A DNA stretch of 64,000 nucleotides, taken from contig MKTU01000027.1 of the NCBI GenBank assembly GCA_001898415.1, positions 56,885 to 120,884 on the forward strand. Reading direction: 5' to 3'. The position numbers were made by a program, and so were the translations under genes. The notes under the pieces are model-generated. The model ran no database searches, was not told where the DNA came from, and saw nothing but the letters and a program-made list of their open reading frames with translations. This document shows, one piece after another, positions 153-55,893 of this stretch. The stretch's first letter is position 1, and each line of letters starts with the position of its first letter. The stretch comes from Rhodanobacter sp. 67-28. GTDB lineage: Bacteria; Pseudomonadota; Gammaproteobacteria; Xanthomonadales; Rhodanobacteraceae.

Positions 153-181
153 TTGTATCCGGTACAAGTTTAGTGTATAGG
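153..181 (+). promoter_or_regulatory. Candidate sigma70 promoter with overlapping dyad
   Basis: TTGTAT (153-158) and TATAGG (176-181) are separated by 17 bp, upstream of the priming sugar transferase. The -35 lies inside an imperfect dyad, TTGTA-TCCGG-TACAA (153-167), which could be an operator. The match is by eye only. Upstream, 1-150 shows no supportable gene. Confidence 0.4.
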
Positions 182-264
182 TGCAGGCCCGCCGCCAGGC
201 GGGGACGAGCGCCAAGCGGTGCCGTCGGTTCGCCATGCTGGTTGGAGTGGCAAGGGTTGGGGGG

Positions 265-1671
265 ATGGAGATGTTTCGCTTTCTGCGTCGTAAAGCCAAC
301 CGCTGGCTATTGCTGCTGGCGGCTGTGGACATGGTGCTGCTGGGCTTTTCGCTCAACGCGGCCATGTACCTGCGTTATTTCAATCGGCCTGCCGATCTGG
401 CCCAGTTCTCCCACCACATGCCCGAGCGCTCGCTGGCGTTCGCCGTGATCATGCTGCTGGCGATGGTCGCCCTGGGTCACTACCAGTCGCACATGCGAAC
501 GAGCTGGTTCGGCGTGCTGGCGCGCCAGAGCGTGGGTTTCGTGCTCGGTGGCGTGGGCGTCTTCATCATGTATTACCTGCTGCCGCAGGCCTATGTCGGC
601 CGCGGCGTGCTGACCATCGCGCTGCTGCTGTCCTTCGCCCTGATGATGGGCTTCCGGCTGGTGTTCCTGCGCCTGGTGGACGCGGTGGTGTTCCAGCGCC
701 GGGTGCTGATCCTGGGTGCAGGCAAGCGTGCCTCGCAGATCCAGACGCGCATGCGCCGCCACGCCGACCGGATCGGCTTCAACGTGCTCGGTTTCGTGCC
801 GCGCGAGGGCGAGGAGGTGCAGGTCGGCGCGATGTCCCTGGTGCGCCCCGAGGGTTCGCTGGTGGACTGGGCGCTGCATCGCCAGGTGGACGAGATCGTG
901 GTCGGCGTGGACGACCGGCGCGGCGGGCTGCCCATGCGCGACCTGCTGGAGTGCCGTCAGAACGGCATCGACGTGACCGACCTGGCGACCTTCTTCGAAC
1001 GCGAGTCCGGCCGCGTGCAGCTGTCGCTGACCGATCCCTCCTGGCTGGTGTTCTCCGGCGGCTTCGATGCCACTCCGCTGCGCCGCTTCAGCAAGCGCTG
1101 CTCGGATCTGCTGATCGCCACGCTGGTGCTGCTGCTGACCTGGCCGCTGATGCTGCTGGTGGCGCTGGCCATCCGCATCGAGTCCGGTGCCGGCCAGCCC
1201 ATTCTCTACCGGCAGGAGCGCGTCGGCGCGCGCGGCAAGACGTTCCAGCTGATCAAGTTCCGCAGCATGCGCACCGACGCGGAGCTGGACGGCATCGCGC
1301 GCTGGGCGAACAAGGACGACGACCGGGTGACCCGGGTGGGCCGCTTCACGCGCAAGGTGCGCCTGGACGAGCTGCCACAGTTGTGGAACGTGCTCAAGGG
1401 CGAGATGAGCTTCATCGGCCCGCGGCCCGAGCGGCCGCAATTCGTGATCGACCTTGGCCAGAAGATCCGCTACTACGATCTGCGTCATTGCCTCAAGCCC
1501 GGTCTGGCCGGCTGGGCGCAGCTGCGTTATCCGTATGGCGCGTCCGAGGCCGATGCCGAGGAAAAGCTCAAGTACGATCTGTACTACGTCAAGAACCACA
1601 ACCTGCTGTTCGACCTGCTGATCCTGTTCCAGACGGTCGAAGTGGTGCTGTTCCGCCGCGGCGCACGCTGA
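265..1671 (+). CDS. Undecaprenyl-phosphate sugar phosphotransferase (exopolysaccharide priming enzyme)
   Basis: 468 aa polyprenyl glycosylphosphotransferase, predicted to move a hexose-1-phosphate from a UDP-sugar to undecaprenyl phosphate at the inner membrane, the first step of repeat-unit assembly. Four N-terminal membrane segments (about residues 14-135) precede a nucleotide-binding-like fold (LILGAGKRA). A fifth helix (about 282-305) leads into the catalytic domain, with KFRSMRTDAE near residue 331 and DELPQLWN...SFIGPRPE near 368-388. Architecture and length fit the WbaP/EpsB-like family (TIGR03013/TIGR03025). ATG 265 is chosen because it begins MEMFRFLRRK, is preceded by a G-rich SD-like tract and removes 28 unconvincing residues from the longest reading frame. 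Confidence 0.9.
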   Translation: MEMFRFLRRKANRWLLLLAAVDMVLLGFSLNAAMYLRYFNRPADLAQFSHHMPERSLAFAVIMLLAMVALGHYQSHMRTSWFGVLARQSVGFVLGGVGVFIMYYLLPQAYVGRGVLTIALLLSFALMMGFRLVFLRLVDAVVFQRRVLILGAGKRASQIQTRMRRHADRIGFNVLGFVPREGEEVQVGAMSLVRPEGSLVDWALHRQVDEIVVGVDDRRGGLPMRDLLECRQNGIDVTDLATFFERESGRVQLSLTDPSWLVFSGGFDATPLRRFSKRCSDLLIATLVLLLTWPLMLLVALAIRIESGAGQPILYRQERVGARGKTFQLIKFRSMRTDAELDGIARWANKDDDRVTRVGRFTRKVRLDELPQLWNVLKGEMSFIGPRPERPQFVIDLGQKIRYYDLRHCLKPGLAGWAQLRYPYGASEADAEEKLKYDLYYVKNHNLLFDLLILFQTVEVVLFRRGAR

Positions 1672-4961: not shown

Positions 4962-5654
4962 TCACTGGCCCTGCGGCGGGCTGCTGTGCGCGGCCACATG
5001 CAGCGGGTACAGCGGTGAGCTGTACCAGTCGACCACCTTGCCGTTCTCGAAGCGCACCCATGATGGGCCGTACTCCCAGCGCTGGTCGCTGGCCATCAGC
5101 GTGGGTTCGCCTTCGATGCTGCGCACGCTGGCGGCATCCATGCCCAGGCCCCACGCCGGCCGTTCCGCCGGCGCTGTCGCCGTGGCGCGATGCGTCGGCG
5201 GCTGCACGGTTTCGGCGGGCGGGGCCGCGGGCGGCGCGGGCGGTTCGCCCGGCCACAGCCACCACGCCGCAATGGCAGCGGCCGGCAGCAACAACCAGCG
5301 ACGGGAACGCCGCCGTGTCGCGAGTACCCGCTGCGTCGCCGCGGCCGACCCGGCTTCGCCCCTCGGCGGCTGGGACGGCCGCACGCCCGCGGCGCCGGGC
5401 AGGCGGCCATGCGTGCGGTGGAACTCCATCGCCATGCCGTACATCGCGGTGAGCTGCTGCAGCCGCTGCGCGGCGACGCCGCGCGAATCCTCGTCGCGAC
5501 GGTCCGGGTGCAGCACCGACACCCGGCGCCGGTACGCGTGCTTGAATTCGTCCAGGCCACAACCCGGTTCGAGACCGAGCAAGCGGTAGAGGTCGAGAAA
5601 ATCGGTCTCGCGCGCCACGTCGTGCTTCCCCTTGAATGCCGCAAGCCGGGCCAT
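4962..5654 (-). CDS. Membrane-anchored J-domain protein
   Basis: 230 aa. Residues about 17-80 form a J-domain with the diagnostic HPD at 49-51 (VLHPDRRDEDSRG), the DnaK-stimulating signature. A basic stretch and one hydrophobic helix (about 119-136) follow, then a Pro/Ala-rich linker and a C-terminal segment (about 165-220, RWEYGPSWVRFENGKV) resembling the strand pattern of SmpA/OmlA-type proteins. The J-domain would face the cytoplasm and the tail the periplasm. It has no zinc-finger or G/F region, so it is a type III J-protein. It is convergent with the lyase-like gene and divergent from the methyltransferase. Client unknown. Confidence 0.75.
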   Translation of the reverse strand: MARLAAFKGKHDVARETDFLDLYRLLGLEPGCGLDEFKHAYRRRVSVLHPDRRDEDSRGVAAQRLQQLTAMYGMAMEFHRTHGRLPGAAGVRPSQPPRGEAGSAAATQRVLATRRRSRRWLLLPAAAIAAWWLWPGEPPAPPAAPPAETVQPPTHRATATAPAERPAWGLGMDAASVRSIEGEPTLMASDQRWEYGPSWVRFENGKVVDWYSSPLYPLHVAAHSSPPQGQ

Positions 5655-5691
5655 GTGCCGCGCACCATCCGTGCACCGGCTGCCGTGCGGA

Positions 5692-5697
5692 ACTATA
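5692..5697 (-). promoter_or_regulatory. Possible -10 element for the J-domain gene
   Basis: TATAGT on the minus strand, about 38 nt upstream of the ATG at 5654. There is no convincing -35 at 16-18 bp and no clear SD. Confidence 0.25.
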
Positions 5698-5775
5698 CCT
5701 GCTGGACGCCGCGGCCGCGGCGCACCCTCGCTGCCTCGTGCTAGCGTGACGCACCGAAAACGGCGGGAGGCGACG

Positions 5776-6615
5776 ATGGCCAGGGGCCTGACTGCAAGCT
5801 TGCGGGGTGTGGCGTTGGGCGTGGCGGAGTTGCCGGGGGTGCGTCTGCTCGCGCGGCCGGTCTATCGCCACCTGTTTGCCCGCGACGTGTTGCCCGGCAA
5901 TGCCTACGGCGGCGTGTTTGCCAGTGTCGAGGCGGCGCGTGCCGGGGCACCGGCATCGTTGCCGACCAGCTACGACCAGCCGCAGTCGGGCGAGCTCTAC
6001 GCCGACCGGCTGGAGCGTGTGCAGATCGTGGATTACCCGGTGCTGTTCTGGCTCTCGCGACTGTTTGCCGGCGACGCGCGGAAATTGTTCGACCTGGGCG
6101 GCAACGTGGGCACCAGCTATTTCGGTTTCCGCCACCACCTGCCGTATCCCGATGACCTGCGCTGGCTGGTGCACGACGTGCCCGCCGTGGTCGCGGCCGG
6201 GCGCGCGCTGGCCGAGCGCGAGGATGGCGCCGGCAAGCTCGGCTTCACCGACTCTCCGCAGGACGCCGACGGTTGCGACGTGCTGCTCTGCAGCGGCGTG
6301 CTGCAGTACCTCGACTACTCGCTGCCGCAGTTGCTGCAACCATTGCGCGCGCCGCCGCGCCACGTATTGGTCAACGTGACGCCGCTGCACCCCGAGCGCA
6401 GCTTCGTGACCCTGCAACGTGTCACCCGGCGCCGGGTCGGCATCGCCAACTGCCCGTACCGGGTGACCGCGCTGGGCGCCTTCATCGAGGAGTTCGCGGC
6501 AGCCGGTTATCGCGTGGTCGACCACTGGTCGACGACCGAGCGCCACATGCGCATTCCGTTCGAGCCGGACCATTCGATCGATCGTTACCACGGATTCTGT
6601 TTCCGCCGCGACTGA
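5776..6615 (+). CDS. Putative SAM-dependent methyltransferase, TIGR04325 type
   Basis: 279 aa. The N-terminal half has the NAYGGVFAS and YPVLFWL segments typical of the TIGR04325 (LIC12133-like) group found in surface-polysaccharide loci. FDLGGNVGTSYF (about 105-116) is a glycine-rich SAM-binding motif I. Later motifs are HDVPAVV and CSGVLQYLDYS. The start is set by GGGAGG (5765-5770) 5 nt before ATG 5776. The preceding 120-bp gap is divergent with the J-domain gene. It may modify the polysaccharide or the NRPS/PKS product encoded just downstream; context alone does not decide. Substrate unknown. Confidence 0.7.
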   Translation: MARGLTASLRGVALGVAELPGVRLLARPVYRHLFARDVLPGNAYGGVFASVEAARAGAPASLPTSYDQPQSGELYADRLERVQIVDYPVLFWLSRLFAGDARKLFDLGGNVGTSYFGFRHHLPYPDDLRWLVHDVPAVVAAGRALAEREDGAGKLGFTDSPQDADGCDVLLCSGVLQYLDYSLPQLLQPLRAPPRHVLVNVTPLHPERSFVTLQRVTRRRVGIANCPYRVTALGAFIEEFAAAGYRVVDHWSTTERHMRIPFEPDHSIDRYHGFCFRRD

Positions 6616-8449: not shown

Positions 8450-8491
8450 TCCATCCGCGTAGCACGCAGTCAGTCTGAATGGCGTGCCCCA

Positions 8492-8521
8492 TTGCACAGT
8501 TCGACGCGGTTCTGCGCTAAT
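8492..8521 (+). promoter_or_regulatory. Weak candidate promoter before the PKS/NRPS gene
   Basis: TTGCAC (8492-8497) and GCTAAT (8516-8521) are 18 bp apart in the 241-bp gap upstream of the assembly-line genes. The -10 matches consensus at four of six positions. Confidence 0.25.
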
Positions 8522-8690
8522 CTTGTCGTCCAGAGGCTGGTTTGGCAGACGACGCGATGAGCGGGTGCTCCCAGGCGGCTTCGCTGGGCAGATGCCGGCC
8601 GATCCGCGGTGCCTCGCGAATCGCGCGCATCCTGCCCGAGGGAGATCGGCGCGTGTCGTGGCGGTCATCGCCGCCCGACCAGGAGGGGTG

Positions 8691-11600
8691 GTGGGCGCGG
8701 CATCCAATCCAGTGTCAATTGACGACGGCATGTCGTTGCTGGACGTGCTGCCGGGCATCGCGCCTGCCGATGACGAAACCTGGCAAAGCCGCCGCGTGCC
8801 GCTCGACGGCGCATTGGCCACTTGCGTGGCGGCGCTGCACGCGGCCGATCCCGAGCGCGCGGCGCTGACCCTGCTGGCCGCGTTGGCGCGGGTCGAGGCG
8901 CAGCTGACCGGCGCCGAGTCCGCCGTGGCAACGCTGCACCAGGCCGGATGCACCCGCCAGCTGACCGTGCCAGTGCCCCGCGACGCGCCACGCAAGGCAT
9001 GGCTGGAGGGCGTGCTGTCCGCAGCGCGCGGGTCGGCCGCCCCGGTCACGGTGGCGTGGATGGTGCTGCAGGAGGCAGCGTTGCCGGACGCCGCCGCCGC
9101 GCTCTCCACCTGGCGCCTCGATTTCAGCGACGCGATCGCCCTCGAACTGCGCTGGCGCAGCCCGCTGACGGCAGCGAGCGTGGAGCTGCTGGCCGGTTGC
9201 GTGCAGCGCGCCTGGGCGGGCCTGCTCGACGAAGCTGACGCCGAGCCGGATCTCCTCGCTCCGGCCGAACGCCAGCGCTTGCTGGTGCAGTGGAATGACA
9301 CCGCGGTGCCGCGACACCGCGGCGACAGCGTGTCCGCGCTGTTCTCCCGCACCGCCGCCGCGCATGCGGATGCACCGGCGGTGGTCGAGGGCGGGCACGC
9401 CCTGAGCTATGCCCGACTCGATGAGCGGTCCAGCACCTTGGCCCGGCATCTGCTCGATGCCGGCGTCGTGCCGGGCGACATCGTCGGCGTCGCGCTGGAG
9501 CGTTCGGCGGGGGCGCTGGTGGCAATCCTCGGCGTGCTCAAGGCCGGCGCGGCCTACCTGCCGCTCGATCGCAGCCACCCGCCGGAGCGGTTGGCGTTTG
9601 CGCTGGCCGATGCGGGTGCGCGGATGGTGCTGGTCGCATCGGTCGCGGCTACGCTGCCGTTGCCCGATGGAGTGGCGTGCCTTGCGCTGGATGTCGTCGA
9701 GTCCGTACCCGTGCCGCACGACGCGCCGCTGCCCGTGGTCGACGGCGATGCGCTCGCCTACGTGATGTACACCTCCGGCTCCACCGGCACCCCCAAGGGC
9801 GTAGCGATCGCCCATCGTTCGATCATCCGGCTGGTGTGCGGCGTGGATTACGTGCGGCTGGATGCCGACACGCGCATGTTGCACGCCGCGCCGCTGGGCT
9901 TCGATGCGTCGACCCTGGAAATCTGGGGCGCGCTGCTGAACGGCGGTCGCGTGGTGGTCCATCCCGAAACTATCCCCACCGCTGCCGGCCTGGCCGCAAC
10001 CATTGCCGGCGAAGGGGTCGGCACGGCGTGGCTGACCTCGTCGCTGTTCAACGCCGTGGTCGACGAGGCGCCGCGTCGGCTGGAGGGGTTGCGCCAGCTG
10101 CTGATCGGTGGCGAGGCACTGTCGGTCGACCATGTGCGCCGCGCGCTGGCGGCCTTGCCCGGCGTGGAGATCATCAACGGCTACGGCCCGACCGAGTGCA
10201 CCACGTTCACCTGCACCTGGCCGATCCCGCGGGACCTGCCGGCCGACGCGCGCTCGGTGCCGATCGGCCGGCCGATCGCCGACACCCGCGTGTACGTGCT
10301 CAATCGCGCCGGCGAGCTGGTGCCGACGGGCGTGGTCGGCGAGCTGCACGTGGGTGGCGACGGCGTGGCGCGCGGTTACCTCGGACGGGCGCAGCTGACC
10401 GCCGAGCGTTTCGTGGCCGATCCGTTCGGCGCCGCCGATGGTCGCCTGTATCGCACCGGCGACCTGGTGCGCTGGCGCGACGACGGCGTGCTGGAGTTCG
10501 TCGGCCGGCGCGACGGCCAGGTCAAGATCCGCGGCTACCGCATCGAGACCGGCGAGATCGAGGCAGCGCTGCTGCGCCAGCCCGGCGTGCGCGCCTGCGC
10601 CGTCGTGCTGCGCGATGACCCGCCGCTGGGCAAGCGCCTGGTCGCCTACGTGGTCCCCGCCGCCACCCGCCCCGACCAGCCGGCGCTGCGCCGCGGCTTG
10701 GCTGCCGAACTGCCGGAGTTCATGCTGCCGGCCGCGTGGGTGGTGCTGGACGCGCTGCCGGTCACCACCAACGGCAAGCTCGACCGCGCCGCACTGCCGG
10801 CGCCGGGCAGCGCACGGCCGGAACTGGCCACGACCTACGAAGCCCCGGTGGGCGAAGCCGAGACGCGCCTGTGCGCCGCCTTCGCCACCAGCCTCGCGCT
10901 GGACAAGGTGGGCCGCCACGACAACTTCTTCGAGCTGGGCGGCAGCTCGCTGCTGGCGGTGCGGCTGATCGATCGCTTGCGCCGCGACGGCGATGCCGCG
11001 CTGGACGTGCTGACCTTCTTCCGCGATCCCACGCCGCTGGCGCTGGCCCGCCACCGCGATCACGCCGGCGCCGACGGCATCGAACCGGCGCGCCTCGCCC
11101 GCCCGCGTGCCGCCGGCGCGCAAGCCGGTGCCGAGCCGATCGCGATCATCGGCATGAGCGGCCGCTTCCCCGGCGCCGCGGACATCGAGAGCTTCTGGCA
11201 GAACCTGTGCGAGGGGCGCGAGTCGATCACCCGCTTCGCGCCGGGCGAGCTCGACCCGTCGATCCCGGCGAGCCTGCGCGACGATCCGGCCTACGTGCCC
11301 GCGCGCGGCGTGATCGACGGCGTGGAGCTGTTCGACGCCGCGTTCTTCGGCATCAGCCCGCGCGAGGCGGAGTTGATGGACCCGCAGCAGCGGCTGTTCC
11401 TGGAGCTGTGCTGGGAGTGCCTGGAACGCGCCGGCCATGCACCCGGCGCGCAGGACGGCCCGGTCGGCGTGTTCGCCGGCATGTACAACGCGACCTATTT
11501 CCAGCACCACGTCAGCGCGCATCCCGACCAGGTCGGGAAGCTCGGCGCGTTCCAGGTGATGCTGGACAACGAGAAGGATTTCATCGCGCCGCGGGTGGCA

Positions 11601-14600
11601 CACAAGCTGGACCTCACCGGTCCCGCGGTGAGCGTGCACACCGCCTGTTCCACCTCGCTGGTGGCGATCTGCCAGGCGATGGAGAGCCTGCGCAGCGGCC
11701 AGTGCGAGATGGCGCTGGCCGGCGGTGCCTCGATCACCTGTCCGCCGCGCAGCGGCTACCTGTTCCAGGACGGCGCGATGCTGTCGCCGGACGGCCACAC
11801 GCGAAGCTTCGACGCCGAGGCGCGGGGCACGGTGTTCAGCGACGGTGCGGCGGTGGTGCTGTTGAAGCGGCTGGCCGACGCGCAGGCCGATGGCGACCCG
11901 GTCATCGCGGTGATCCGCGGTGGCGCGATCAACAACGACGGCGGCACCAAGGCCAGCTTCATGGCGCCCAGCAGCGAGGGCCAGGCCGCGGTGGTCGCGA
12001 TGGCGCAGCGCAACGCCGGCGTCGACGCGCGCAGCATCTCCTACGTGGAAGCGCACGGCACGGCCACGCCGATCGGCGATCCGATCGAGGTGGAGGGCCT
12101 GGTCAAGGCGTTCCGGCGCGACACGCCGGATACCGGCTTCTGCCGCCTCGGTTCGGTCAAGAGCAACGTCGGCCACCTGGTGATCGCCGCCGGCGCGACC
12201 GGCGTGATCAAGACTGCGCTGGCGCTGGCCGAGCGGCGGATTCCGCCGAGCCTGCATTACGCCGCGGCCAACCCGGCGATCGACTTCGCCCGCTCGCCGT
12301 TCGTGGTCAACGATCGCCTGCATGACTGGACCAGCGCGCCCGGCGTACCGCGCCGCGCGGGCGTGAGTTCGTTCGGCGTGGGCGGCACCAATGCGCACGT
12401 GGTGCTGGAGGAAGCACCCGCACCGACGCCGAGCGAGGCGACCGCCGGGCCGCAACTGCTTTTGCTGTCGGCGCGCACGGCCACTGCACTGGGTACGGCG
12501 GCCACGCGGCTGGGCACACACCTGGCGGACTCTCCGGAAGTCGAGCTTGCCGACGTGGCGTGGACGCTGGCGGTCGGACGCAAGGCCTTCGCCCATCGGC
12601 TGGCCGTGGTCACCGAGTCCGCCACCAGCGCCAGCGCGCAGCTGGCCAGCGCGGAAATCGCCGCGGCGGCGACGCGCAGCACGCCGGCGCGGGCGAGCGA
12701 CGTGGTCTTCCTGTTCCCGGGCCAGGGCGCCCAGTATGCCGGCATGGGTCGCGCGCTGCATGCCAGCGAGCCGGTGTTCCGCGACGCATTCGACGCTTGC
12801 GCCAGCGCCTTGCGCAAGCAGGGCGGTTTCGACCTCGCCGCGTGCGTGTTCGCCGACGACCCGGCCGCGCTGCTGCCCACGGCGGTGATGCAGCCGGCGA
12901 CGTTCGCCATCGAATACGCGCTGGCGCAGTGGTGGATGAGCCTGGGCCTCGTGCCGGCAGCGATGATCGGCCACAGCGTGGGCGAGTTCGTGGCAGCCAC
13001 GCTGGCCGGCGTGTTCAGCCTGCGCGACGCGATCGCGCTGGTGGCGCGGCGCGGCGAGCTGATGCAGGCGCAGCCACCGGGCGCGATGCTGTCGGTGCGG
13101 CTGCCGCTGGATGCATTGCAGGCACGCCTGCCGGCGGATCTGGCGCTGGCAGCGGAGAACGCGCCTGGCGCCTTCGTGGTGGCCGGGCCGGCCGAGACGG
13201 TCGAGGCTTTCCGGGCGGCGCTCGAAGCGGACGGCATCGCCGCGCGCCTGCTGCAGACCTCGCACGCCTTCCATTCGGCGATGATGGAGCCGGTGCTGGC
13301 ACCGTTCCGCGAGGCGCTTGCCGCCGTCGAACTGGGCCGCCCGCAGCTGCCCCTGGTGTCGACCGCGCTGGGCGACTGGCTCGACCCCGCGCAGGCCGGC
13401 TCGATCGATTACTGGACGCAGCACCTGCGCGTGCCGGTGCGCTTCTCCGGCGCGCTGGCGCGGGTGCTCGACGCGCCATCGCGCGTGCTGCTGGAAGTGG
13501 GGCCGCGCCACACGCTGACCACGCTCGCCCGACAGCAACTCGGTACCGCGCGCGAACGCATCGTCGCCGTGCCCAGCCTGGCCGATGCGGCGGACGTGGA
13601 GCGCACGGCGCTGCTGCAGGCCGCGGGCCAACTCTGGTGCCGCGGCATGGCGCTTGATCCGGCACGACTCGACCATCGCGCGCGCCGCCGCCGCGTGCGC
13701 CTGCCCACCTATCCGTTCGAACGCCAGCGCTGCTGGCTGGATGCCGCACCCGCCACGGCGCCCGCGCCATCGTTCCCAGAACCGACACCCGTCGCCGCCG
13801 CGCCCGCGGCCGAGGAAGCCCCCATGCCGCAAGTCGCCATGCCCGCCGATCGCCGCCCCCGGCTGGTGAACCAGCTCAAGGCGGTGTTCGAGGACATCAC
13901 CGGGATCGAACTGGACGACGCCGACAGCACCAGCAACTTCATCGAGCTCGGGCTGGACAGCCTGATGCTGACCCAGGTCGCGCTGCACCTGTCGCGCGTG
14001 TTCCCGGTCAAGGTGACCTTCCGCCAGTTGATGGTCGACCACGCCAGCCTGAACCGGCTGGCGGCGTTGCTGGACGAGCAGATGCCGCCGGACGCGTCGA
14101 CGGCGGCGCCAGTTGCCGCGCCGGTCGCCGCCCCCGTGGCTGCGCCGACGCTCGCCGCGCCAACGCTTGCCGTGCCGGCGCTGCCGACGGCGGGAGCGGG
14201 CGGCAACGACTACGTGCGTCACGTGATCGACCAGCAGATGCAACTGATGGCACAGCAGCTGGCCTTGCTCGGGGGAACGGCGAGCGCCGCCGCACCCGTC
14301 GCGCCCGCACAGCAAGCAGCACCACCGGCCAGCGTGGCGACGCCACCGGCGGCAGCACCCGTGTCGACCAGCGCGGATCGCGACGAGGAAGCGGCGCTGG
14401 CGCACACCCGCTACGACGTCAAGAAGGCGTTCGGCGCGATCGCGCGCATCGACAACGGCCAGCTGGAACTGTCCCGCCACCAGCGCGAGCGGCTCGATCG
14501 TTTCATCGAGCGCTACGTCGCGCGGTCGCGCAAGTCCAAGCAGTACACCGAGGCGCAGCGCCCGCACATGGCCGACCCGCGCGTGGTGAACGGCTTCCGC

Positions 14601-15953
14601 CCGCTGACCAAGGAGATCGTCTACCCGCTGGTGGTCGAGCGCTCCAAGGGCTCGCGCCTGTGGGACCTGGACGGCAACGAATACGTGGATGCGCTGAACG
14701 GCTTCGGCATGAGCCTGTTCGGCTGGCAGCCGGATTTCGTGCTGGAGGCCATCCGCCGCCAGCTCGACCTCGGCTACGAGATCGGCCCGCAGCATCCGCT
14801 CGCCGGCGACGTGGCGCGACTGGTGTGCGAGGTCACCGGACACGACCGCGCCGCCCTGTGCAACACCGGTTCGGAAGCCGTGCTGGGTGCGCTGCGGGTC
14901 GCGCGCACGGTCACCGGGCGCAGCACCGTGGTGCTGTTCAGCGGCTCCTACCACGGCATCATCGACGAGGTGATCGTGCGCGGCACGAAGAAGCTGCGTG
15001 CGGTGCCGGCCGCGCCCGGGATCATGCGCAACACGGCGGAGAACGTGATCGTGCTGGACTACGGCACGCCGGAATCGCTGGAGATCATCCGCGCGCGCGC
15101 GCACGAGCTGGCCGCCGTGCTGATCGAGCCGGTGCAGAGCCGACGGCCCGATTTCCAGCCAGTCGATTTCCTGCGCGAAGTGCGCAAGATCACCGCCGCC
15201 TCCGGCACGCTGTGCATCTTCGACGAGATCGTCACCGGCTTCCGCGCCCATCCCGGCGGCACCCAGGCGCTGTTCGGCATCCAGGCGGACCTCGCCACCT
15301 ACGGCAAGGTGGTCGGCGGCGGTTATCCGATCGGCGTGATCGCCGGCAAGCGCGAGTTCATGGATGCGCTCGACGGCGGCAGCTGGCAGTTCGGCGACGA
15401 CTCGGTGCCGACCGTGGGCGTGACCTATTTCGCCGGCACCTTCGTGCGCCACCCGCTGGCGCTGGCGGCGGCGCAGGCGGTGCTCGAACACATCAAGGAG
15501 CAGGGCGCCGGCCTGCAGGAGCGGCTCAACGCGCGCACCACGGCGATGGCCGCCGAGCTCAACGCGTTCTGCGACGAAGTCGGCGCGCCGATCGCGGTCA
15601 AGCACTTCGCGTCGTTCTGGAGGACCCAGTTCCTGGAAGAGCATCCCTTGCAGGATCTGCTGTTCGCGATGATGCGCAGCCGCGGCGTGCACATCCTGGA
15701 CAACTTCCCCTGCTTCTTCACCTCCGCGCACAGCGAGGCGGATTTCCGGCAGATCACGCAGGCCTGGAAGGATTCGGTGATCGAACTGCAGGAGGCCGAC
15801 TTCCTGCCGCGGCGCACCGCCACCGCCCGCACCGTGATGGACGCGCGCCAGCCGCCGCTGCCCGGCGCGCGTATCGGCCGCGAACCGGACGGGCGTCCGG
15901 CGTGGTTCGTGCAGGTTCCCGGGCAACCGGGCAGCTACACCAAGGCAAGTTGA
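8691..15953 (+). CDS. Hybrid NRPS/PKS synthase: (C remnant)-A-PCP-KS-AT-ACP-aminotransferase
   Basis: 2420 aa. The N-terminal ~190 residues resemble only the tail of a condensation domain (no HHxxxDG). The A domain has [11 protein letters not shown] near residue 359. Residues read by eye at the ten code positions give D-A-L-W-L-G-G-T-F-K, close to the classic valine code. The PCP Ser lies in LGGSS (~750). The KS has Cys 986 in TACSTS plus HGTAT and NVGH. The AT has GHSVGE (Ser 1429) and HAFH, which favours malonyl-CoA. The ACP Ser is 1757. The C-terminal class III PLP aminotransferase (GSA-like) has Lys 2206 in [10 protein letters not shown]. There is no KR, DH or ER. The order KS-AT-ACP-AMT matches mycosubtilin/iturin synthases. 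GTG 8691 is chosen for AGGAGG at 8681-8686; ATG 8730 is the alternative. Confidence 0.9.
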
Positions 15954-15958
15954 TCGCG

Positions 15959-18856
15959 ATGAGCATCGGAACCCCAGCCAGGGACGCGGCGCTCGCCGTC
16001 GACTACGACCCCTTCGCCGACGGCACGCTGTCGCGCGTGGTGCCCGGCACCGAGCCGCAGCGCGAAATCTGGCTGGCCGACCAGCTCGGCGCCGAGGCTT
16101 CGCTGGCCTACAACGAATCGGTCTCGCTGCACTTGCGCGGCGTGCTCGATGCGGCCGCGCTGCACGCGGCGTTGCAGTCGCTGCTGGATCGGCACGATGC
16201 GCTGCGCGCCAGCTTCGGCCCGGATGGCGAAGCCCTGTGCATACGCGAGCAGGTGAGCTTCGAGCTGCCGTTGCTCGACCTGTCGGCCGCCGATCCGGCG
16301 CGGCGCGAGCAGGCCGTGGCCGAGCGTCGCGCCGCGGTGGTGGAAACCCCGTTCGCGCTGGGCCGCGATCACCTGCTGCGCGGCGAGTTGCTCCGCCTGG
16401 CGCACGACGAGCACGTGCTCATCCTCACCGCCCATCACATCGTCTGCGACGGCTGGTCGTGGTGGGTGCTGGTGCGCGAGCTGGGCACGCTGTACGCGCA
16501 GCGGCTCGGCCACGCGGTGGAGGCGCTGCCGCCGGCCGAAGCGTTCGCCGACTACGCGCTGGCCCAGGCCTGCCAGCCGGATGCCGCATACGCGCAGGAC
16601 GAGCAGTACTGGCTGGCGCGCTTCGCCGGCGAGATCCCGGTGCTCGACCTGCCCACCGATCGCCCGCGCCCGGCCCGCCGCAGCTTCGGCTCCGCTCGCG
16701 AGGACTGGACGCTGGATGCGGAACTGGTCGCGGCGATCCGCCGCCTCGGCGCGCGCCAGGGCGCCAGCCTGTTCGCCACCTTGCTGGGCAGTTTCGCCGC
16801 CTTGCTGATCCGGCTGGCACACCAGTCGCGGGTGGTGATCGGCATCCCCACCGCCGGGCAGGCGATCGACGGCCACGACGCCCTGGTCGGCCACTGCGTC
16901 AACACCTTGCCGCTGCTGTTCGAGCCGGACCTGGACCGGCCCGCCGCGCTGGCCATCGAGCAGGCGCAAACCACCTTGCTCGACGCGCTGGAACACCAGC
17001 GCCTCACCTTCGGCAGCCTGCTGCGCAAGCTGCGCATCGGCCGCGACCCTTCGCGCCTGCCGCTGGTCAGCGTGATGTTCAACATCGACCAGGCGCTGGA
17101 CCACGAGGACTCGGCGTTCCCCGGCCTGCAGCTGGAATTCGCCAGCAATCCGCGCCGCTACGAGAACTTCGAGCTGGCGATCAACGCGGTGCAAAGCCAT
17201 GGCGAGCTGCGCCTGGAATGCCAGTACAACCGCGAGTTGTTCGACGGTGCCACGATCCGCCAGTGGCTGGGGCACTACCAGACCCTGCTGCAGGCGATGG
17301 CCGCCGACGACGACACGGCGTTCGGTCGGCTGCCGCTGCTGGCCGACATCGAGCAGCGCAAGGTGCTGGAGAAGTTCAATGCCACCCACGTCGACTATCC
17401 GGCCGGGCAGTGCATCCATGAACTGATCGAGGCGCAGGTGGCGCGCACGCCGCAGGCGATTGCCGTCAGCCATGAAGGCGCAACGCTGAGCTACGCCGGG
17501 TTGAACGAGCGGGCCAATCGGCTCGCCCATCACCTGCGCGCGTCCGGCGTGCGCCCCGACCAGCGCGTGGCGATCTGCGCCGAGCGCTCGCTGGAGCTGG
17601 TGGTCGGCCTGCTGGCCATATTGAAGGCCGGCGCGGCGTACGTGCCGCTCGACCCGGAATATCCACCCGAGCGCCTGGCCTGGATGCTGCAGGACTGCGC
17701 GCCGGCAATGCTGCTGACCCAGCAGGCGCTGGTGTCGCGGTTGGCGCCGCTGGCGCCGGCCGTGCCGCCGTTGGCGCTGGACCAGGCCGCGCCGGCATGG
17801 GCCGAGTGTGAGGCATCCAACCCGCTCGCGGCGGCAAACGGCCTGCACGACCGCCACCTCGCCTACGTGATCTACACCTCTGGCTCCACCGGCCTGCCGA
17901 AGGGTGCGATGAACGAGCATCGCGGCGTGGTCAACCGGCTGCGCTGGATGCAGGAGATGTTCGCTGTCGATGCACGCGACGTGGTGCTGCAGAAGACGCC
18001 GTGCAGTTTCGACGTCTCGGTGTGGGAGTTCTTCCTGCCGCTGATGAGCGGCGCGCGGCTGGTGATGGCGCGTGCCGGCGGCCATCGCGATCCGGCCTAC
18101 CTGGCCGATACCATCCGGCGCGAGCAGGTCAGCACGATCCATTTCGTGCCTTCGATGCTGCACGCCTTCCTCGACCACGGCGATACCGCGGCGTGCGCCA
18201 GCCTCAAGCAGGTGATCTGCAGCGGCGAGGCGCTGCCGGCGGTACTGGCCGCGGCGTTTTTCCGCCAGTTGCCCGGCGTGGGCCTGCACAACCTGTACGG
18301 CCCGACCGAGGCGGCGGTGGATGTCACCGCGTGGGCGTGCGTGGCCGGCGACGACGCATCGAGCATTCCGATCGGCCGCCCGGTGGCCAACACGCGCATC
18401 TACATCCTCGATGGCTATGGCCAGCCGGTGCCGGTGGGCGTGGCCGGCGAGATCTTCATCGGCGGCGTGCAGGTCGGTCGCGGCTACCTCAACCGCGAGA
18501 CGCTGACCGCCGAGCGCTTCCTGCCCGATCCGTTCGCCCACGACGCCGACGCACGCATGTACAAGACCGGCGACCTCGGTCGCTGGCGTGCGGACGGCAA
18601 CATCGAATACCTCGGCCGCAACGATTTCCAGGTGAAGCTGCGCGGTTTCCGCATCGAGCTGGGCGAGATCGAACACCGCCTCGCCACGAACCGGCGGTGG
18701 CGCAGGCGGTGGTGCTGGCGCGCGAGGATCGCCCCGGCGACATGCGCCTGGTTGCGTACATCGCCGGCGCGGCTGGCGCCAGCGCCGATCCGGCGGCGCT
18801 GTCCGCGCACCTGCGCGCGAGCCTGCCCGAGTACATGGTGCCGGCGCACTACGTGA
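15959..18856 (+). CDS. NRPS, upstream part of frameshifted gene: C-A
   Basis: Begins 5 nt after the PKS/NRPS stop (MSIGTPARD). The condensation domain has an intact HHIVCDG (residues 159-165). The adenylation domain has YTSGSTGLPKG near residue 639, and code residues read by eye are D-V-W-H-I-S-L-V-D-K, matching serine codes. Homology stops after RGFRIELGEIE: from about 18690 the frame reads Arg/Trp-rich nonsense to a stop at 18856, while normal NRPS sequence continues in another frame. Restoring one C near 18691 (AACCGG to AACCCGG, giving ATNPAVAQ) rejoins both parts into a 2161-aa C-A-PCP-C-A-PCP protein. Either a sequence error or a real lesion. As it stands, the product lacks its carrier domain. 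Confidence 0.8.
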   Translation: MSIGTPARDAALAVDYDPFADGTLSRVVPGTEPQREIWLADQLGAEASLAYNESVSLHLRGVLDAAALHAALQSLLDRHDALRASFGPDGEALCIREQVSFELPLLDLSAADPARREQAVAERRAAVVETPFALGRDHLLRGELLRLAHDEHVLILTAHHIVCDGWSWWVLVRELGTLYAQRLGHAVEALPPAEAFADYALAQACQPDAAYAQDEQYWLARFAGEIPVLDLPTDRPRPARRSFGSAREDWTLDAELVAAIRRLGARQGASLFATLLGSFAALLIRLAHQSRVVIGIPTAGQAIDGHDALVGHCVNTLPLLFEPDLDRPAALAIEQAQTTLLDALEHQRLTFGSLLRKLRIGRDPSRLPLVSVMFNIDQALDHEDSAFPGLQLEFASNPRRYENFELAINAVQSHGELRLECQYNRELFDGATIRQWLGHYQTLLQAMAADDDTAFGRLPLLADIEQRKVLEKFNATHVDYPAGQCIHELIEAQVARTPQAIAVSHEGATLSYAGLNERANRLAHHLRASGVRPDQRVAICAERSLELVVGLLAILKAGAAYVPLDPEYPPERLAWMLQDCAPAMLLTQQALVSRLAPLAPAVPPLALDQAAPAWAECEASNPLAAANGLHDRHLAYVIYTSGSTGLPKGAMNEHRGVVNRLRWMQEMFAVDARDVVLQKTPCSFDVSVWEFFLPLMSGARLVMARAGGHRDPAYLADTIRREQVSTIHFVPSMLHAFLDHGDTAACASLKQVICSGEALPAVLAAAFFRQLPGVGLHNLYGPTEAAVDVTAWACVAGDDASSIPIGRPVANTRIYILDGYGQPVPVGVAGEIFIGGVQVGRGYLNRETLTAERFLPDPFAHDADARMYKTGDLGRWRADGNIEYLGRNDFQVKLRGFRIELGEIEHRLATNRRWRRRWCWRARIAPATCAWLRTSPARLAPAPIRRRCPRTCARACPSTWCRRTT

Positions 18857-21800
18857 TGCTGCCGGCAATCCCGCTGTCGCCCAACGGCAAGGTCGATCGC
18901 ACGCGATTGCCGGCACCCGACACGGCGGCGGGCAGCGGAGCACGCGAACAGCAGGCGCCACGCGATGAACTCGAACAGCGCGTGGCCGCAGCGATGGCCG
19001 CGACGCTCGGCGTGGACGCGCCGGGCGTGGACGACAACTTCTTCGACCTGGGCGGCCATTCGCTGCTGGCCTCGCGCTGGATCGCCCGGCTCAATCGCGA
19101 ACTGGGGTTGACCCTGTCGTTGCGCGCCGCGTTCGACGCCCCCAGCGTGGCCGCGATGGCGGCGGCGATCCGCGCGCTGGACACCGATCCGGCCCAGGCC
19201 CGCCCGGCGCCGCCGTCGATCCCGCGGCTCGCCGATCGCGGCACCGCGCCGCTCTCGCTGATGCAGCAACGCGTCTGGTACCTGGAGCAGCTCAATCCCG
19301 GCCAGGTGGTCTACCACGCGCCGTCCGCGCATCGCCTGCGCGGGCCGATGAACGTGGCGGCCTTCGAACAGGCGCTGCGCGACATGGTGCGGCGCCAGCC
19401 GACCTTGCGCACGGCGATCGAGCTGGACGACAAGACCGCGGTCCAGCGCATCCATGCCGAGCTCGAGATCGCGTTGCCGCTGGAGGATCTTTCCGGCGTG
19501 GACGCGGCCGGGCGCGAGGCCGTACTGGCCCGGCGGCTGGAGGAGCTGATCGCCGAGCCGTTCGACCTGGGCACGCCGCCGCTGTTCCGGGTGAGGCTGT
19601 TCCGGCTCGCTGCGGACGAACACGTGTTCTTCTTCATGCCGCATCACGTGATCTGGGATGGCTGGTCGTTCGACCTGCTGTACGAGGAGATGTCGGCGCT
19701 GTACGCCGCGCGTGCCGCCGGCCGGGAACCTGCATTGCCGCCGCTGGCGGTCGAGTACGCCGATTTCGCCGCGTGGCATGCGCAATGGATGCGTGGCGAC
19801 GAGCTGAAGCGCCAGCTGGCGCATTGGCGCAAGCGCCTGGCCGGCACGCTGGAGCCGCTGGCGTTGCCGGTCGATCGCCCGCGTCCGCCGCGCATGAGCG
19901 GCGCCGGTGCCACCGAGTGGATCCATCTGCCGGCGGACCAGGCGGCGGGCATGCGCCAGCTCGGCCAGCAGGGCCAGGGCACGCTGTTCATGGTGTTGCT
20001 GACCGCCTGGTGCGTGCTGCTGCATCGGCTCAGCGGGCAGGGCGAGGTGATCGTGAACACGCCCGTGCGCGGTCGCGACACGCCCGAGCTGGAACGGGTG
20101 ATGGGCTTCTTCGTCAACGCGCTGCCGCTGCGCGTGCAGCTGGAAGACGGCGCCTCGTTCCTGGACGCGCTGCAGGCGGTGCGTGGCGTGGTGCTTGATG
20201 CGTTTGCCTGCGCCGACGTGCCGTTCGAGCAACTGGTGATCGACCTCGACCTGCGCCGCGACGACAGCCGCCCGCCGCTGAGCCAGGCGATGTTCTCGTT
20301 CCAGGACGTGCGCCTGCGCCCGGGCCGCTGGGGCGAGCTGGAACACCAGAACATCCCGGTGTTCCAGCACGGCGCGGCTGACGACGTCGGGCTGTGGTTC
20401 ATCGAGCACGCGCAGGGACTTTCCGGCGGCCTCACCTACAACACCGACATCTTCGACGCCGCCAGCGTGGCGCGCTGGATCGATTACCTGCGGCAGATCC
20501 TGGCGCAGGCGGTGGCCTCGCCGCAGCGCGCGCTGGGCGACATCGAGCTGATGGACGCGGCGGAACGAACGCAAGTGCTCGTGGAGTGGAATGCGACCGC
20601 GGTGGACTACGACCGCACGCTGGGCCTGCCCGCGCTGATCGAGGCGCAGATGCGCGCCGCGCCGCAACGCATCGCTGCCGAGTGCGGTGGCGAGCGCGTC
20701 GACTATGCGTGGCTCGACCAGGCCAGCCGCAACCTCGCGCTGGCGCTGGGTCGTCACGGCCTCGGTCGCGGCGACCGCGTGGGCATCTGCGTGCCGCGCA
20801 GCCTGTCGATGCTGGTGGCGGTGCTCGGCGTGTTGCGCAGTGGCGCCGCCTACGTGCCGCTGGACCCCACCTTCCCGCCGGATCGCCTGCACTACATGGC
20901 CGAGCATGCGCAGCTGCGCCATGTGCTGGTCACCGACGCGGCACTGCTGCCGGCGGCGGTCGCCGAAGGTCGCGAACTGCTCGACGTCGACGCACTGGCC
21001 GCGCAGCCGGCGGGCGAGGGCAACTTGCCGCCGGTGCACGGCGACGACACCGCCTACGTGCTGTACACCTCCGGCTCCACCGGCAAGCCCAAGGGTGTCG
21101 CCGTGCTTCACCGCAACCTGGTCAACTTCCTGCTGGCGATGGCGCGCGAGCCGGGTTTCACCCGGGACGACACCGTGTGCGCGGCCACCACGCTGTCGTT
21201 CGACATTGCCGGGCTGGAGCTGTACCTGCCGCTGACCGTGGGCGGGCGCGTGGTGATCGCCACCGACGAGGAGCAGCACGATCCGAACCGGATGTGGGAC
21301 CTGATCGAGCGCAGCGGCTGCAACGTGCTGCAGGTGACCCCCTCGGTGCTGCGCCTGTTGCAGGATGCCGGGCGGGATCGCGCGCTGGATCAGCTGCGCC
21401 TGTTCGTCGGCGGCGAAGCGCTGCCGTCGGCACTGGCGCGCAACATGGCGGGGCGCTGCCGCGAGCTCTGGAATCTGTACGGCCCCACCGAGACCACGAT
21501 CTGGTCCAGCCTGGCGCGAATCCGCCCGGATCTCGATACGGTGCCGCTGGGCAAGCCGATCGCCAACACGCGGATCTACGTGCTGGACGCGCAGGGTAGG
21601 CCATTGCCGCCGGGCGTCATCGGCGAGATCTGGATCGGCGGCGATGGCGTGGCCGCCGGCTATCTGTTCCAGCCCGAGCTGACCGCCGAGCGCTTCGTCG
21701 ACGATCCCTTCGTCGGCGGCACCGCGCGCATGTATCGCAGCGGCGACCTGGGTGCCTGGCGCCATGGCGTGCTGCATTTCCACGGGCGCGTCGACCACCA

Positions 21801-22443
21801 GGTCAAGCTTCGCGGTTTCCGCATCGAGCTGGGCGACATCGAGGCCGCCGCCGACAGCCACCCGGCGGTGCACGAATCCGTGGCGGCGGTGCGCCGCTTC
21901 GGCGACAACGACCTGCGCATGGTGCTGTACGTGGTGATGGACGGCGACGTCGAGGCGGGTGCCCGCGAGCTGCGCGAGCACCTGCGCCAGCGCCTGCCCG
22001 GCTACATGCTGCCGCAGCACATCGAGACCCTGGCGCAGCTGCCGAAGACGCCCAACGGCAAGATCGATCGCAAGCAACTGCCCGAGCCCGTCGCCGCGGC
22101 GGTCGTGGCGCAGCAGCGTCCCGGCCGGCAGGCCGGGCCCGCGACCGACGCGATGAGCGATGCGCGCGAACTGTATCTCGCCGGCCTCTGGCGCGAGCTG
22201 ATCGGCGTCGAGGAGATTCGCCGCAACGACAACTTCCTCGACCTCGGCGGGCACTCGATGCTGGCGGTGGAGTTCGCCAGCCGGGTGCGCAAGGAGACCG
22301 GCGTGAGCCTGCGCCTGCTGAACGTGGTCACCGGCACGCTGGCATCGCTGGCCGCCGAGCTGCCCGAAGCCGGCGCGGGTTCGCCGCGACCGGCGGAAGG
22401 TTCCCTGTGGTCGCGTCTGCGCAAGCGCCTCGGAGGGGGCTGA
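18691..22443 (+). CDS. NRPS, downstream part of frameshifted gene: PCP-C-A-PCP
   Basis: Continues the NRPS in a different frame; the coordinate given is the frame junction, not a start codon (no SD is visible; ATG 18742 is the first ATG). The end of the serine-type A domain (PNGKVDRTRLP) is followed by a PCP with LGGHSLL (Ser codon 19060), then a C domain with HHVIWDG (~19642). The second A domain has YTSGSTGKPKG (~21064), and hand-read code residues D-I-L-Q-F-G-L-I-W-K resemble glycine codes. A final PCP has LGGHSML (Ser codon 22255). The protein ends about 60 residues later with no thioesterase or reductase, so release must be in trans or by another route. Confidence 0.8.
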   Translation, partial: PAVAQAVVLAREDRPGDMRLVAYIAGAAGASADPAALSAHLRASLPEYMVPAHYVMLPAIPLSPNGKVDRTRLPAPDTAAGSGAREQQAPRDELEQRVAAAMAATLGVDAPGVDDNFFDLGGHSLLASRWIARLNRELGLTLSLRAAFDAPSVAAMAAAIRALDTDPAQARPAPPSIPRLADRGTAPLSLMQQRVWYLEQLNPGQVVYHAPSAHRLRGPMNVAAFEQALRDMVRRQPTLRTAIELDDKTAVQRIHAELEIALPLEDLSGVDAAGREAVLARRLEELIAEPFDLGTPPLFRVRLFRLAADEHVFFFMPHHVIWDGWSFDLLYEEMSALYAARAAGREPALPPLAVEYADFAAWHAQWMRGDELKRQLAHWRKRLAGTLEPLALPVDRPRPPRMSGAGATEWIHLPADQAAGMRQLGQQGQGTLFMVLLTAWCVLLHRLSGQGEVIVNTPVRGRDTPELERVMGFFVNALPLRVQLEDGASFLDALQAVRGVVLDAFACADVPFEQLVIDLDLRRDDSRPPLSQAMFSFQDVRLRPGRWGELEHQNIPVFQHGAADDVGLWFIEHAQGLSGGLTYNTDIFDAASVARWIDYLRQILAQAVASPQRALGDIELMDAAERTQVLVEWNATAVDYDRTLGLPALIEAQMRAAPQRIAAECGGERVDYAWLDQASRNLALALGRHGLGRGDRVGICVPRSLSMLVAVLGVLRSGAAYVPLDPTFPPDRLHYMAEHAQLRHVLVTDAALLPAAVAEGRELLDVDALAAQPAGEGNLPPVHGDDTAYVLYTSGSTGKPKGVAVLHRNLVNFLLAMAREPGFTRDDTVCAATTLSFDIAGLELYLPLTVGGRVVIATDEEQHDPNRMWDLIERSGCNVLQVTPSVLRLLQDAGRDRALDQLRLFVGGEALPSALARNMAGRCRELWNLYGPTETTIWSSLARIRPDLDTVPLGKPIANTRIYVLDAQGRPLPPGVIGEIWIGGDGVAAGYLFQPELTAERFVDDPFVGGTARMYRSGDLGAWRHGVLHFHGRVDHQVKLRGFRIELGDIEAAADSHPAVHESVAAVRRFGDNDLRMVLYVVMDGDVEAGARELREHLRQRLPGYMLPQHIETLAQLPKTPNGKIDRKQLPEPVAAAVVAQQRPGRQAGPATDAMSDARELYLAGLWRELIGVEEIRRNDNFLDLGGHSMLAVEFASRVRKETGVSLRLLNVVTGTLASLAAELPEAGAGSPRPAEGSLWSRLRKRLGGG

Positions 22444-22659: not shown

Positions 22660-23922
22660 ATGTTCACATTAAGCCTTCTCTACCTCGCGCTCACCATCGT
22701 CCGGCCACAGGATTTCTTGCCCGCGCTGGAGGGCATTCCGCTGTTGCCGGTGGTGCTGCTGCTGGCTTTCGCGGCGTGGATGATCCGTGCCGGCAAGAAT
22801 TTCGACGCGCCGCAGTTCCTGTTGTTGCCGGTGTTCCTGCTGGTAGGCATGGTGTCGATGGTCGCCAACCACTGGTTCGGCGGCGCGCTTGCGCTGCTGG
22901 AGAGTTTCGGCCCCATCGTGATCGCGTTCTTCGTCTTCGCCTCCGCCTGCACCACGCAGCGCCGGGTGACCATCGCGATGGCGGTGTTCGTGCTGTGCGC
23001 CTGCGTGCTGGCCCAGCACAGCATCGTGCAGGCGAACACCGGCATGGGCTGGACCGGCGTACCGCTGGGTGAGGACGGGCGCGTGCGCTACGTGGGCATC
23101 TTCAACGACCCCAACGACGTGGGCCTGCTGTTTGCCGCCACGCTGCCGATGGCGTTCTTCCTCAGCAGCGGGGGCGGTTTCCTGCGCCGGATCTGGTGGC
23201 TGGCCGCCGCGGGCCTGCTGCTGTACGGCATCTACCTGACCAATTCGCGCGGCGCCATGCTCGCGGTGCTGGTGGTCGGCGGCATCTTCGTGTGGCGACG
23301 CCGCGGCATGTTCACCGCCGGCGTGCTGGGCGTGCTGGGTTTGCTGGTGATGCGCCTGCTGTCCTCGCGCATGCAGGAGCTGGACCCGGACGAGTCATCG
23401 GCGTTTGGTCGGGTGGATGCCTGGTACGAGGGCATGCACATGTTCTTCTCCAACCCGCTGCTCGGCGTCGGCCCCGGCAACTTCACCGACTACAATCAGC
23501 TCACCGCGCACAACTCCTGGGTACTGGTGCTGGCCGAAACCGGGTTTCTGGGCTACACCCTGTGGCTGGCATTCACCACCTACGGCTTCTGGATGATGAT
23601 GACCGTGATGCGCCACCAGCCCGAAACGGCCGTCGAGTCGGCGCAGGCCGGCACGTGGCAGGGCGAACGGGCGATCGCGTTCACCCTGCTGTTGTCGCTG
23701 TACGGGCTGTTCTCCGCGGCGTTCTTCCTCAGCCGCAGCTACACCGTGGTGATGTACCTGCTGGTCGCGCTGGTGGTGGGCCATTACATGGGCGCGCGCC
23801 AGCGCTGGCCGGGCGTGCCGCTGCTGCGCCTGACCGATCACTGGATGCGCTGGCTGGCCGTGTCGGTGGCCACCATCGTGGCGTTGTACGTCATCACCAC
23901 CATCTTGCTGATCGGCTCATGA
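22660..23922 (+). CDS. O-antigen ligase/Wzy-type polysaccharide polymerase
   Basis: 420 aa, about 10 predicted membrane helices, with the Wzy_C/O-antigen-ligase loop pattern: NPLLGVGPGNFTDY followed by a conserved His in AHNSWVLVLAETG. Such enzymes polymerise or transfer lipid-linked repeat units on the periplasmic face. It heads a five-gene operon in which every following start overlaps the previous stop (ATGA). ATG 22660 begins MFTLSLLYLALTIVRPQ. The 216-bp gap after the NRPS contains no gene I can support. Polymerase versus ligase cannot be separated by sequence alone. Confidence 0.8.
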   Translation: MFTLSLLYLALTIVRPQDFLPALEGIPLLPVVLLLAFAAWMIRAGKNFDAPQFLLLPVFLLVGMVSMVANHWFGGALALLESFGPIVIAFFVFASACTTQRRVTIAMAVFVLCACVLAQHSIVQANTGMGWTGVPLGEDGRVRYVGIFNDPNDVGLLFAATLPMAFFLSSGGGFLRRIWWLAAAGLLLYGIYLTNSRGAMLAVLVVGGIFVWRRRGMFTAGVLGVLGLLVMRLLSSRMQELDPDESSAFGRVDAWYEGMHMFFSNPLLGVGPGNFTDYNQLTAHNSWVLVLAETGFLGYTLWLAFTTYGFWMMMTVMRHQPETAVESAQAGTWQGERAIAFTLLLSLYGLFSAAFFLSRSYTVVMYLLVALVVGHYMGARQRWPGVPLLRLTDHWMRWLAVSVATIVALYVITTILLIGS

Positions 23923-47942: not shown

Positions 47943-47975
47943 GGACGGGTCGACTCGCGTGCCTGTGCCGGCAGC

Positions 47976-55701: not shown

Positions 55702-55893
55702 GAATGTCTCCCTGCGTCCATCGGCTCCCGACGCAATCGAGGCCGCGGACCATCTTTGGTGCCGCAAGCGGTGCCGGGAGTCGGGGGCAAGCATAGTGGG
55801 ATCGGGCAGCGCGCGCCGTCGTGGCGTTCGTTTCCCGCGCCGGTGGCATGAAGGTTTTCTATCCATTTTCCGAGGTCACGCGCGGCCCGGCGA

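Follow-up and report, generated by a model that had tools for sequence, protein, structure and literature searches.

The window considered here, 64,000 nucleotides of Rhodanobacter sp. 67-28 (contig MKTU01000027.1, positions 56,885 to 120,884), carries a hybrid nonribosomal peptide synthetase (NRPS) and polyketide synthase (PKS) line within an exopolysaccharide (EPS) locus, and I discuss here what that line may make and where its product may go. Its first protein, encoded at 8691-15953, has the order adenylation (A), peptidyl carrier protein (PCP), ketosynthase (KS), acyltransferase (AT), acyl carrier protein (ACP) and aminotransferase (AMT), and Pfam on window:8691-15950 places AMP-binding at amino acids 218-564, AMP-binding_C at 622-696 with PP-binding after it, the N and C parts of ketoacyl-synt at 815-1190, Acyl_transf_1 at 1339-1619, a further PP-binding at 1728-1794 and Aminotran_3 at 1978-2297, with no ketoreductase (KR), dehydratase (DH) or enoylreductase (ER) among the 11 Pfam families matched there. 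The reading frame is open over 8484-15953, two candidate starts can be picked out by eye (GTG 8691 and ATG 8730), and the A and PCP motifs TSGSTG, YGPTE, NGKLDR and ELGGSSL lie in frame, as do the KS, AT and ACP motifs listed in Table 1 and the AMT motifs YHG, FDEIVTG and TYGK. An earlier note on this DNA had described this same order without KR, DH or ER and a malonyl-type HAFH motif in the AT, and Pfam and the intact motifs agree with it. The protein is taken as the starter module of the line because it has no intact condensation (C) domain.

Aligned to the motif anchors, the starter A domain has the code DALWLGGTFK, exactly as the earlier note had read it by eye, and the note's label of valine-like fits a code that equals DALWIGGTFK, the most commonly met Val code in the accessible part of PMC12283262, at nine of ten positions and differs at position 299 alone. 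Asp235 is present, and against the amino-acid adenylation model TIGR01733 the domain scores 434 bits (cut-off 317); its predicted substrate is an amino acid, with L-valine the likeliest, and Asp235 with the Val-type code would speak against the non-amino acid substrate that the note had considered. The adjoining NRPS, which the earlier note left out along with the polysaccharide locus, starts at ATG 15959, holds the only two C domains found in the genome and has a Ser-like and a Gly-like A code (Table 1), for comparison with which the same part of PMC12283262 gives DVWHLSLVDK and DVWHMSLVDK as Ser/dehydroalanine (Dha) codes and DILQLGMIWK for four Gly domains.

The AMT is a class III enzyme fused after the KS-AT-ACP block; among solved structures its best match is MycA, the AMT of mycosubtilin synthase (6kfm, E 2.4e-121, query residues 3-431), and the pyridoxal phosphate (PLP) lysine, K271, one of the PLP residues whose absence the note had named as refuting, is invariant in a 12-row AMT alignment and also kept in a 13th sequence (G034). 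Transamination of a beta-keto group is the predicted activity. The A domain would thus load L-valine, the most likely substrate, onto the PCP, the KS would join valyl-S-PCP and malonyl-ACP into a gamma-amino-beta-keto thioester, and the AMT would transaminate C3, so that 3,4-diamino-5-methylhexanoyl-ACP is the best reading of what the starter protein produces; the next NRPS would append two residues, the first Ser-like and the second Gly-like, to give a (3,4-diamino-5-methylhexanoyl)-Ser-Gly thioester, and the cationic peptide would most likely be moved to a polysaccharide sugar or a lipid-linked precursor, or else be released and co-secreted. The individual reactions of the line, its sugar acceptor and its release step are inferred, and it is the gene context that suggests a peptide bound to polysaccharide.

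The aminotransferase clade and its relatives

Within a set of 45 same-genus genomes, the window's own included, the ACP-AMT part finds matches at E 1e-60 in 12. For seven of the 11 relatives compared (ten from the genus, plus G050) the alignment spans 96-99% of the PKS with 60-93% identity, and the layout is therefore not a chance one; for the other four it spans 64-66% with 43-50% identity. Among eight Val-like lines, the window included, six have DALWLGGTFK and two (G003 and G029) have DAFWLGGTFK, a classical Val code. The starters of G004, G008 and G001 read DVQF[IV]AHV, a Pro-like code (Val236 and Gln239 mark Pro codes in the accessible part of PMC12283262), that of G050 reads DAFFFGGVFK, and the second A code of the line varies among relatives from Ser-like to Gly-like or DIMQ-type.

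Beyond the genus, genome contigs were scanned with the AMT and the best 80 loci kept, on which all counts for L050-L092 rest. Among these, 44 loci (L049-L092, with L049 being G005 again) show 39-88% identity, and in nearly all of them the AMT is flanked by KS, AT or C domains (in L091 it stands alone), and the other 36, at 28-35% identity, were taken as GSAM-like. In the AMT tree (61 rows, four of them outgroup) the window AMT falls in a group of 38 (support 100/100) that contains neither MycA nor the Bacillota lines, which supplies the phylogeny against MycA that the earlier note had proposed. This clade consists of 34 lines with an amino-acid-type starter A domain ahead of the KS (the code was read in 33, and G061 was judged by motifs only) and four with an unseen starter (L065, L067, L086 and L092, where the starter A is off the contig or was not found; L086 forms a long branch). 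MycA and eight other lines make up a separate group of nine (100/96), and the window AMT, lying outside it, is by this measure not of mycosubtilin/iturin type; nor is its starter of the fatty-acyl type, given Asp235 and the TIGR01733 score above cut-off. The KS tree of 51 rows splits 39 from 12 across a 100/100 branch, with the window KS among the 39, the NRPS-fed side, which also includes L080 and L085 with NRPS domains upstream. L070, L079, L081 and L084 have upstream a DIP2-like loader domain of the kind present in fatty acyl-AMP ligases.

Three residues mark the clade (window AMT numbering): E158 in 37, R318 in 37 and R394 in all 38 of its rows, and none of them in any of the 19 other assembly-line AMT rows; the window AMT has all three. 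Among eight non-clade AMTs from plasmids, E158 occurs in one, R318 in two and R394 in none, and since the first two occur singly outside the clade only the full set is diagnostic. They are clade markers and are not put forward as proof of substrate, being absent from the NRPS-fed but non-clade L080 and L085. There are exceptions to the match of clade and starter: an A domain lies upstream in both L080 and L088, whose AMTs are outside the clade, and the KS of L088 falls on the lipid-fed side of the KS tree. Two clade members, L065 (1-1545) and L086 (1-1431), have a PCP-sulfotransferase stretch immediately upstream of the KS.

Within L050-L092 there are 25 clade loci, the starter A is readable in 21, and all 21 have Asp235; six starters are Val-like, seven clearly Pro-like and the others of other type, including L060, which has Val236 and Gln239 in a code otherwise unlike Pro. 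By record titles, clade lines with readable starters occur in Pseudomonadota, Bacteroidota, Cyanobacteriota, Planctomycetota and Gemmatimonadota, and lines without them in Verrucomicrobiota and Acidobacteriota. No close homologue with a known product was found, whereas a different known product would have refuted the earlier note; this negative comes without comparison to a library of characterised gene clusters. Agrobacterium matches were rejected as the same kind, their AMT being free-standing beside siderophore genes.

Polysaccharide context and the possible fate of the predicted peptide

The domains, motifs, codes, clade and gene context are as described, and on them I consider it probable that the line makes a diaminoacyl peptide within the EPS locus, either attached to the polysaccharide or co-secreted with it. 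Besides the genes in Table 1, the window holds glycosyltransferases and deacetylases. Wzy follows the line in all 11 testable same-genus loci (the window, nine compared relatives and G061; the contig of G011 is too short to count), with a relative of the window's polysaccharide deacetylase-like protein between NRPS and Wzy in eight of the 11 (not in the window, G006 or G003). The chain-length gene and P0001, a protein of 388 amino acids (33330-34493), mark the EPS locus in one shared set of 14 genomes out of 45, of which 12 carry the PKS; G062 and G066 have the locus but not the line, and in them a heparinase-like gene and Wzy share one stretch with no PKS or NRPS match between or near them. 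P0001 itself, 78-94% identical in 13 further genomes of the genus, matches nothing in Pfam or NCBIfam at 0.001, its best PDB match reaches no better than E 0.36, and it was rejected as an NRPS partner because it tracks the EPS locus (14/45), including the two loci without the line.

Table 1. The line and the polysaccharide-related genes of the window (nucleotide positions)
Feature	Position	Strand	Basis or remark
Hybrid NRPS-PKS, A-PCP-KS-AT-ACP-AMT	8691-15953	+	Pfam, motifs; GTG 8691 or ATG 8730
N-terminal ~215 aa, looks by eye like a condensation-domain remnant	8691-9341	+	no Pfam match
Adenylation domain, DALWLGGTFK, Val-like	9342-10778	+	Pfam, code
PCP (approximate), ELGGSSL at 10932	10863-11060	+	Pfam, motif
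Ketosynthase, TACST/EAHGT/SNVGHL intact, with NRPS-fed KSs in tree	11133-12260	+	Pfam, motifs, KS tree
Acyltransferase, GHSVG and HAFH (malonyl type)	12705-13547	+	Pfam, motifs
ACP, LGLDSL	13872-14072	+	Pfam, motif
Class III aminotransferase (AMT), MycA-like; PLP Lys codon 15306-15308	14496-15806	+	Pfam, PDB match, alignment, tree
NRPS part 1: C ~16037-17365, A ~17429-18490 (DVWHISLVD, Ser-like)	15959-18690	+	Pfam, code
NRPS part 2, other frame: A end, PCP (motif 19039), C 19240-20577, A (DILQFGLIWK, Gly-like), PCP (motif 22237)	18691-22443	+	
Phosphopantetheinyl transferase (PPTase)	54946-55866	-	ACPS over cut-off (~55042-55302), EntD-like below NCBIfam cut-offs
Polyprenyl glycosylphosphotransferase, polysaccharide initiation	181-1671	+	TIGR03013 over cut-off
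TIGR04325 family methyltransferase, recurs near related lines	5632-6615	+	NCBIfam
Wzy_C / O-antigen ligase-like polymerase, next gene past NRPS	22660-23922	+	Pfam
Wzx-like flippase (Polysacc_synt), ATG 23919	23919-25469	+	
GNAT/FemAB-like N-acyltransferase	36721-38022	+	PF13480
Polysaccharide deacetylase-like protein	38038-39033	+	
Tyrosine autokinase, chain-length determinant and export protein	45601-48596	-	TIGR03018 below cut-off; TIGR03007 and TIGR03027 over cut-off

Plasmids extend this context. From 50 records with a match, 22 were picked by hand (27-41 kb each), and 14 of their lines have the clade residues. EPS markers, that is polysaccharide export, sugar transferase, chain-length/kinase or flippase genes, lie in 11 of these 14 loci and in 0 of the 8 others by hidden Markov models (HMMs; Fisher p 0.001, with related loci treated as independent). 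The HMMs were built partly from L129, L130, L139, L141, L142 and L143, and excluding these six the counts become 5/8 and 0/8; L134-L138, L140 and L147, stretches without annotation, were judged by HMMs alone. TIGR04325 methyltransferase genes, as in the window, lie near 11 of the 14 clade lines (L129-L132, L134-L139, L141) and near none of the 8 others, with three copies in two Variovorax plasmids. Two EPS-linked loci from separate groups encode a GINT1_N-domain protein close to the NRPS (L066:16059-18674 and L130:27130-28728), a candidate sugar-side pathway protein. Copper-resistance genes lie close to the line in L131, L132 and L133, two Variovorax plasmids and one of Spirosoma.

Several points weigh against a peptide tied to polysaccharide, and they give room to a serious rival, in which the same diaminoacyl peptide is freed as a small molecule (a protease inhibitor, signal or antibiotic) and its EPS neighbours reflect shared regulation. 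In flanks of up to 10 kb, EPS markers occur in only 4 of the 25 clade loci and 0 of 18 others (p 0.13), leaving 21 of the 25 (from the best 80 loci) without one, and only 8 of 25 clade genomes have Wzy_C or Poly_export on the contig of the line at a distance of 40 kb or less (Pfam; this search covered clade genomes only, with no out-of-clade control and with the G005 duplicate excluded). Three of the 14 clade plasmid loci have no EPS markers, the plasmid loci are related (Rhizobiaceae 7/7, Rhodobacterales 3/3, Variovorax 1/3, Spirosoma 0/1), rhizobial megaplasmids are rich in EPS genes, and the first two plasmid loci prompted the EPS test; with these two left out the count is 9/12. The window also has no proven transferase for release and no thioesterase (TE), the latter sought in the line by domain and motif searches. 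Elsewhere, a TE ends the lines of one Pedobacter (L057) and one Spirosoma (L060) relative, a Caballeronia relative (L074) has one too, PPTase genes lie near L057 and L074, and relatives from Rhizobium and Loktanella close with C-PCP-TE and lack a last A domain; lines with such TE endings would allow a free peptide. The Xenophilus relative L052 ends in C-PCP; such terminal modules without an A domain are seen in the G034 ORF (joined L028/L029), L052:11367-16496, L141:24509-27340 and L130:24542-27022, the last two with a TE. Against release as a small molecule stand the missing TE of the window line, its conserved position within the EPS locus across one genus and the recurrence with EPS genes in other families, so that I give free peptide an appreciable probability, clearly short of even, and prefer the peptide that is attached to the polysaccharide or accompanies it.

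Starter identity, integrity and known systems

It is rather unlikely that the substrate of the starter A domain is a different branched or hydrophobic amino acid (Ile, Leu or 2-aminobutyrate), giving a homologous 3,4-diamino acid. The two orthologues with what I take to be the classical Val code argue for valine. So does DALWIGGTFK as the commonest Val code of PMC12283262, and on the other side the exact string DALWLGGTFK was not found in the open-licence PMC literature searched and PMC12283262 has, by its title, a table of codes common to Leu, Ile and Val domains. Decay or silencing of the line in its host genome is somewhat less likely still: an apparent NRPS frameshift near 18,690 (18640-18740), which falls within the line's second A domain, is a further point against a working pathway, but the checked PKS motifs are intact, the same region is one open frame in the close relative G006 (93% identical over the PKS), and the frame change could stem from misassembly as well as from genuine decay. 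A mycosubtilin/iturin-like line aminating a fatty beta-ketoacyl chain, with the A domain as fatty-acyl loader, shares the KS-AT-ACP-AMT block and has MycA as best solved match, yet it is highly improbable given the amino-acid-type A domain, the DIP2-like C-terminal domain that lipid-type loaders carry instead and the placement of AMT and KS away from fatty-acyl lines in both trees.

MycA-type lines are primed with a fatty acid. The likeness of the window to the mycosubtilin and bacillomycin D lines lies in a class III, GSAM-like AMT placed ahead of a C domain to act on a beta-ketoacyl thioester, and the difference in priming by an amino-acid-type A domain and in an AMT and KS that belong to other groups. 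Statine-type units, such as that of spiruchostatin, are made from Val, a malonyl unit and a KR; they too turn an amino acid and malonate into a gamma-amino acid, but the KR leaves a 3-hydroxyl where the window AMT would give a 3-amine. The accessible part of PMC3870968 (2013) describes the function of the MycA AMT on a beta-ketoacyl thioester, and its Table 2 lists A-CP-KS-AT-CP-PLP1 for Pedobacter heparinus C6XWU5 and Thiorhodococcus drewsii G2E5C9 and C-A-CP-KS-AT-CP-PLP1 for Salinisphaera shabanensis F7QBN5, the Pedobacter entry with an antiSMASH-predicted amino acid-Mal-Gly. The layout is thus already in print without a product, and that part of the paper holds no isolated product, amino-acid-starter clade or polysaccharide link; because the layout was tabulated in 2013 and recurs widely, the earlier note went too far in calling the substrate logic unusual. 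In the zeamine pathway (accessible part of PMC3547906) valine likewise primes PKS extension, but ketoreduction is proposed next and the aminotransferase acts in a separate, fatty-acid-like part of the pathway. XrtA-type EPS loci have the same TIGR03013, TIGR03007 and TIGR03027 genes as the window, which differs in its NRPS-PKS and in lacking a detected exosortase: none matched in the window's genome (one genome), in a search whose sensitivity was little tested (1 of 14 control genomes matched, below cut-off), and an exosortase was rejected as the link to the NRPS-PKS. Window 181-48596 thus presents XrtA-type exopolysaccharide genes in a genome without a detected exosortase. Within the open-licence PMC literature, no description of the amino-acid-primed AMT clade or its polysaccharide context was found (judged mostly by titles and abstracts), diamino-acid and vicinal-diamine searches led to the 2013 survey PMC3870968, with no mention of 'vicinal diamine' among the other papers listed, and among the papers listed for NRPS or PKS with EPS or exosortase nothing was on point (titles and abstract starts).

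More broadly, there may be a widespread and as yet unrecognised class of EPS loci in which an NRPS-PKS hands a cationic beta,gamma-diaminoacyl peptide, begun with Val, Pro or another starter and continued mostly with Gly or Ser, to a polysaccharide, a generalization that I hold only tentatively. Vicinal 3,4-diamino acids are, to my knowledge, rare in known natural products, and a cross-phylum clade with varying starters would provide a readable code and new enzymes for 3,4-diamino units. If the product is EPS-bound, it would also represent a way for bacteria to place positive charge on the biofilm matrix that is, as far as I know, new.

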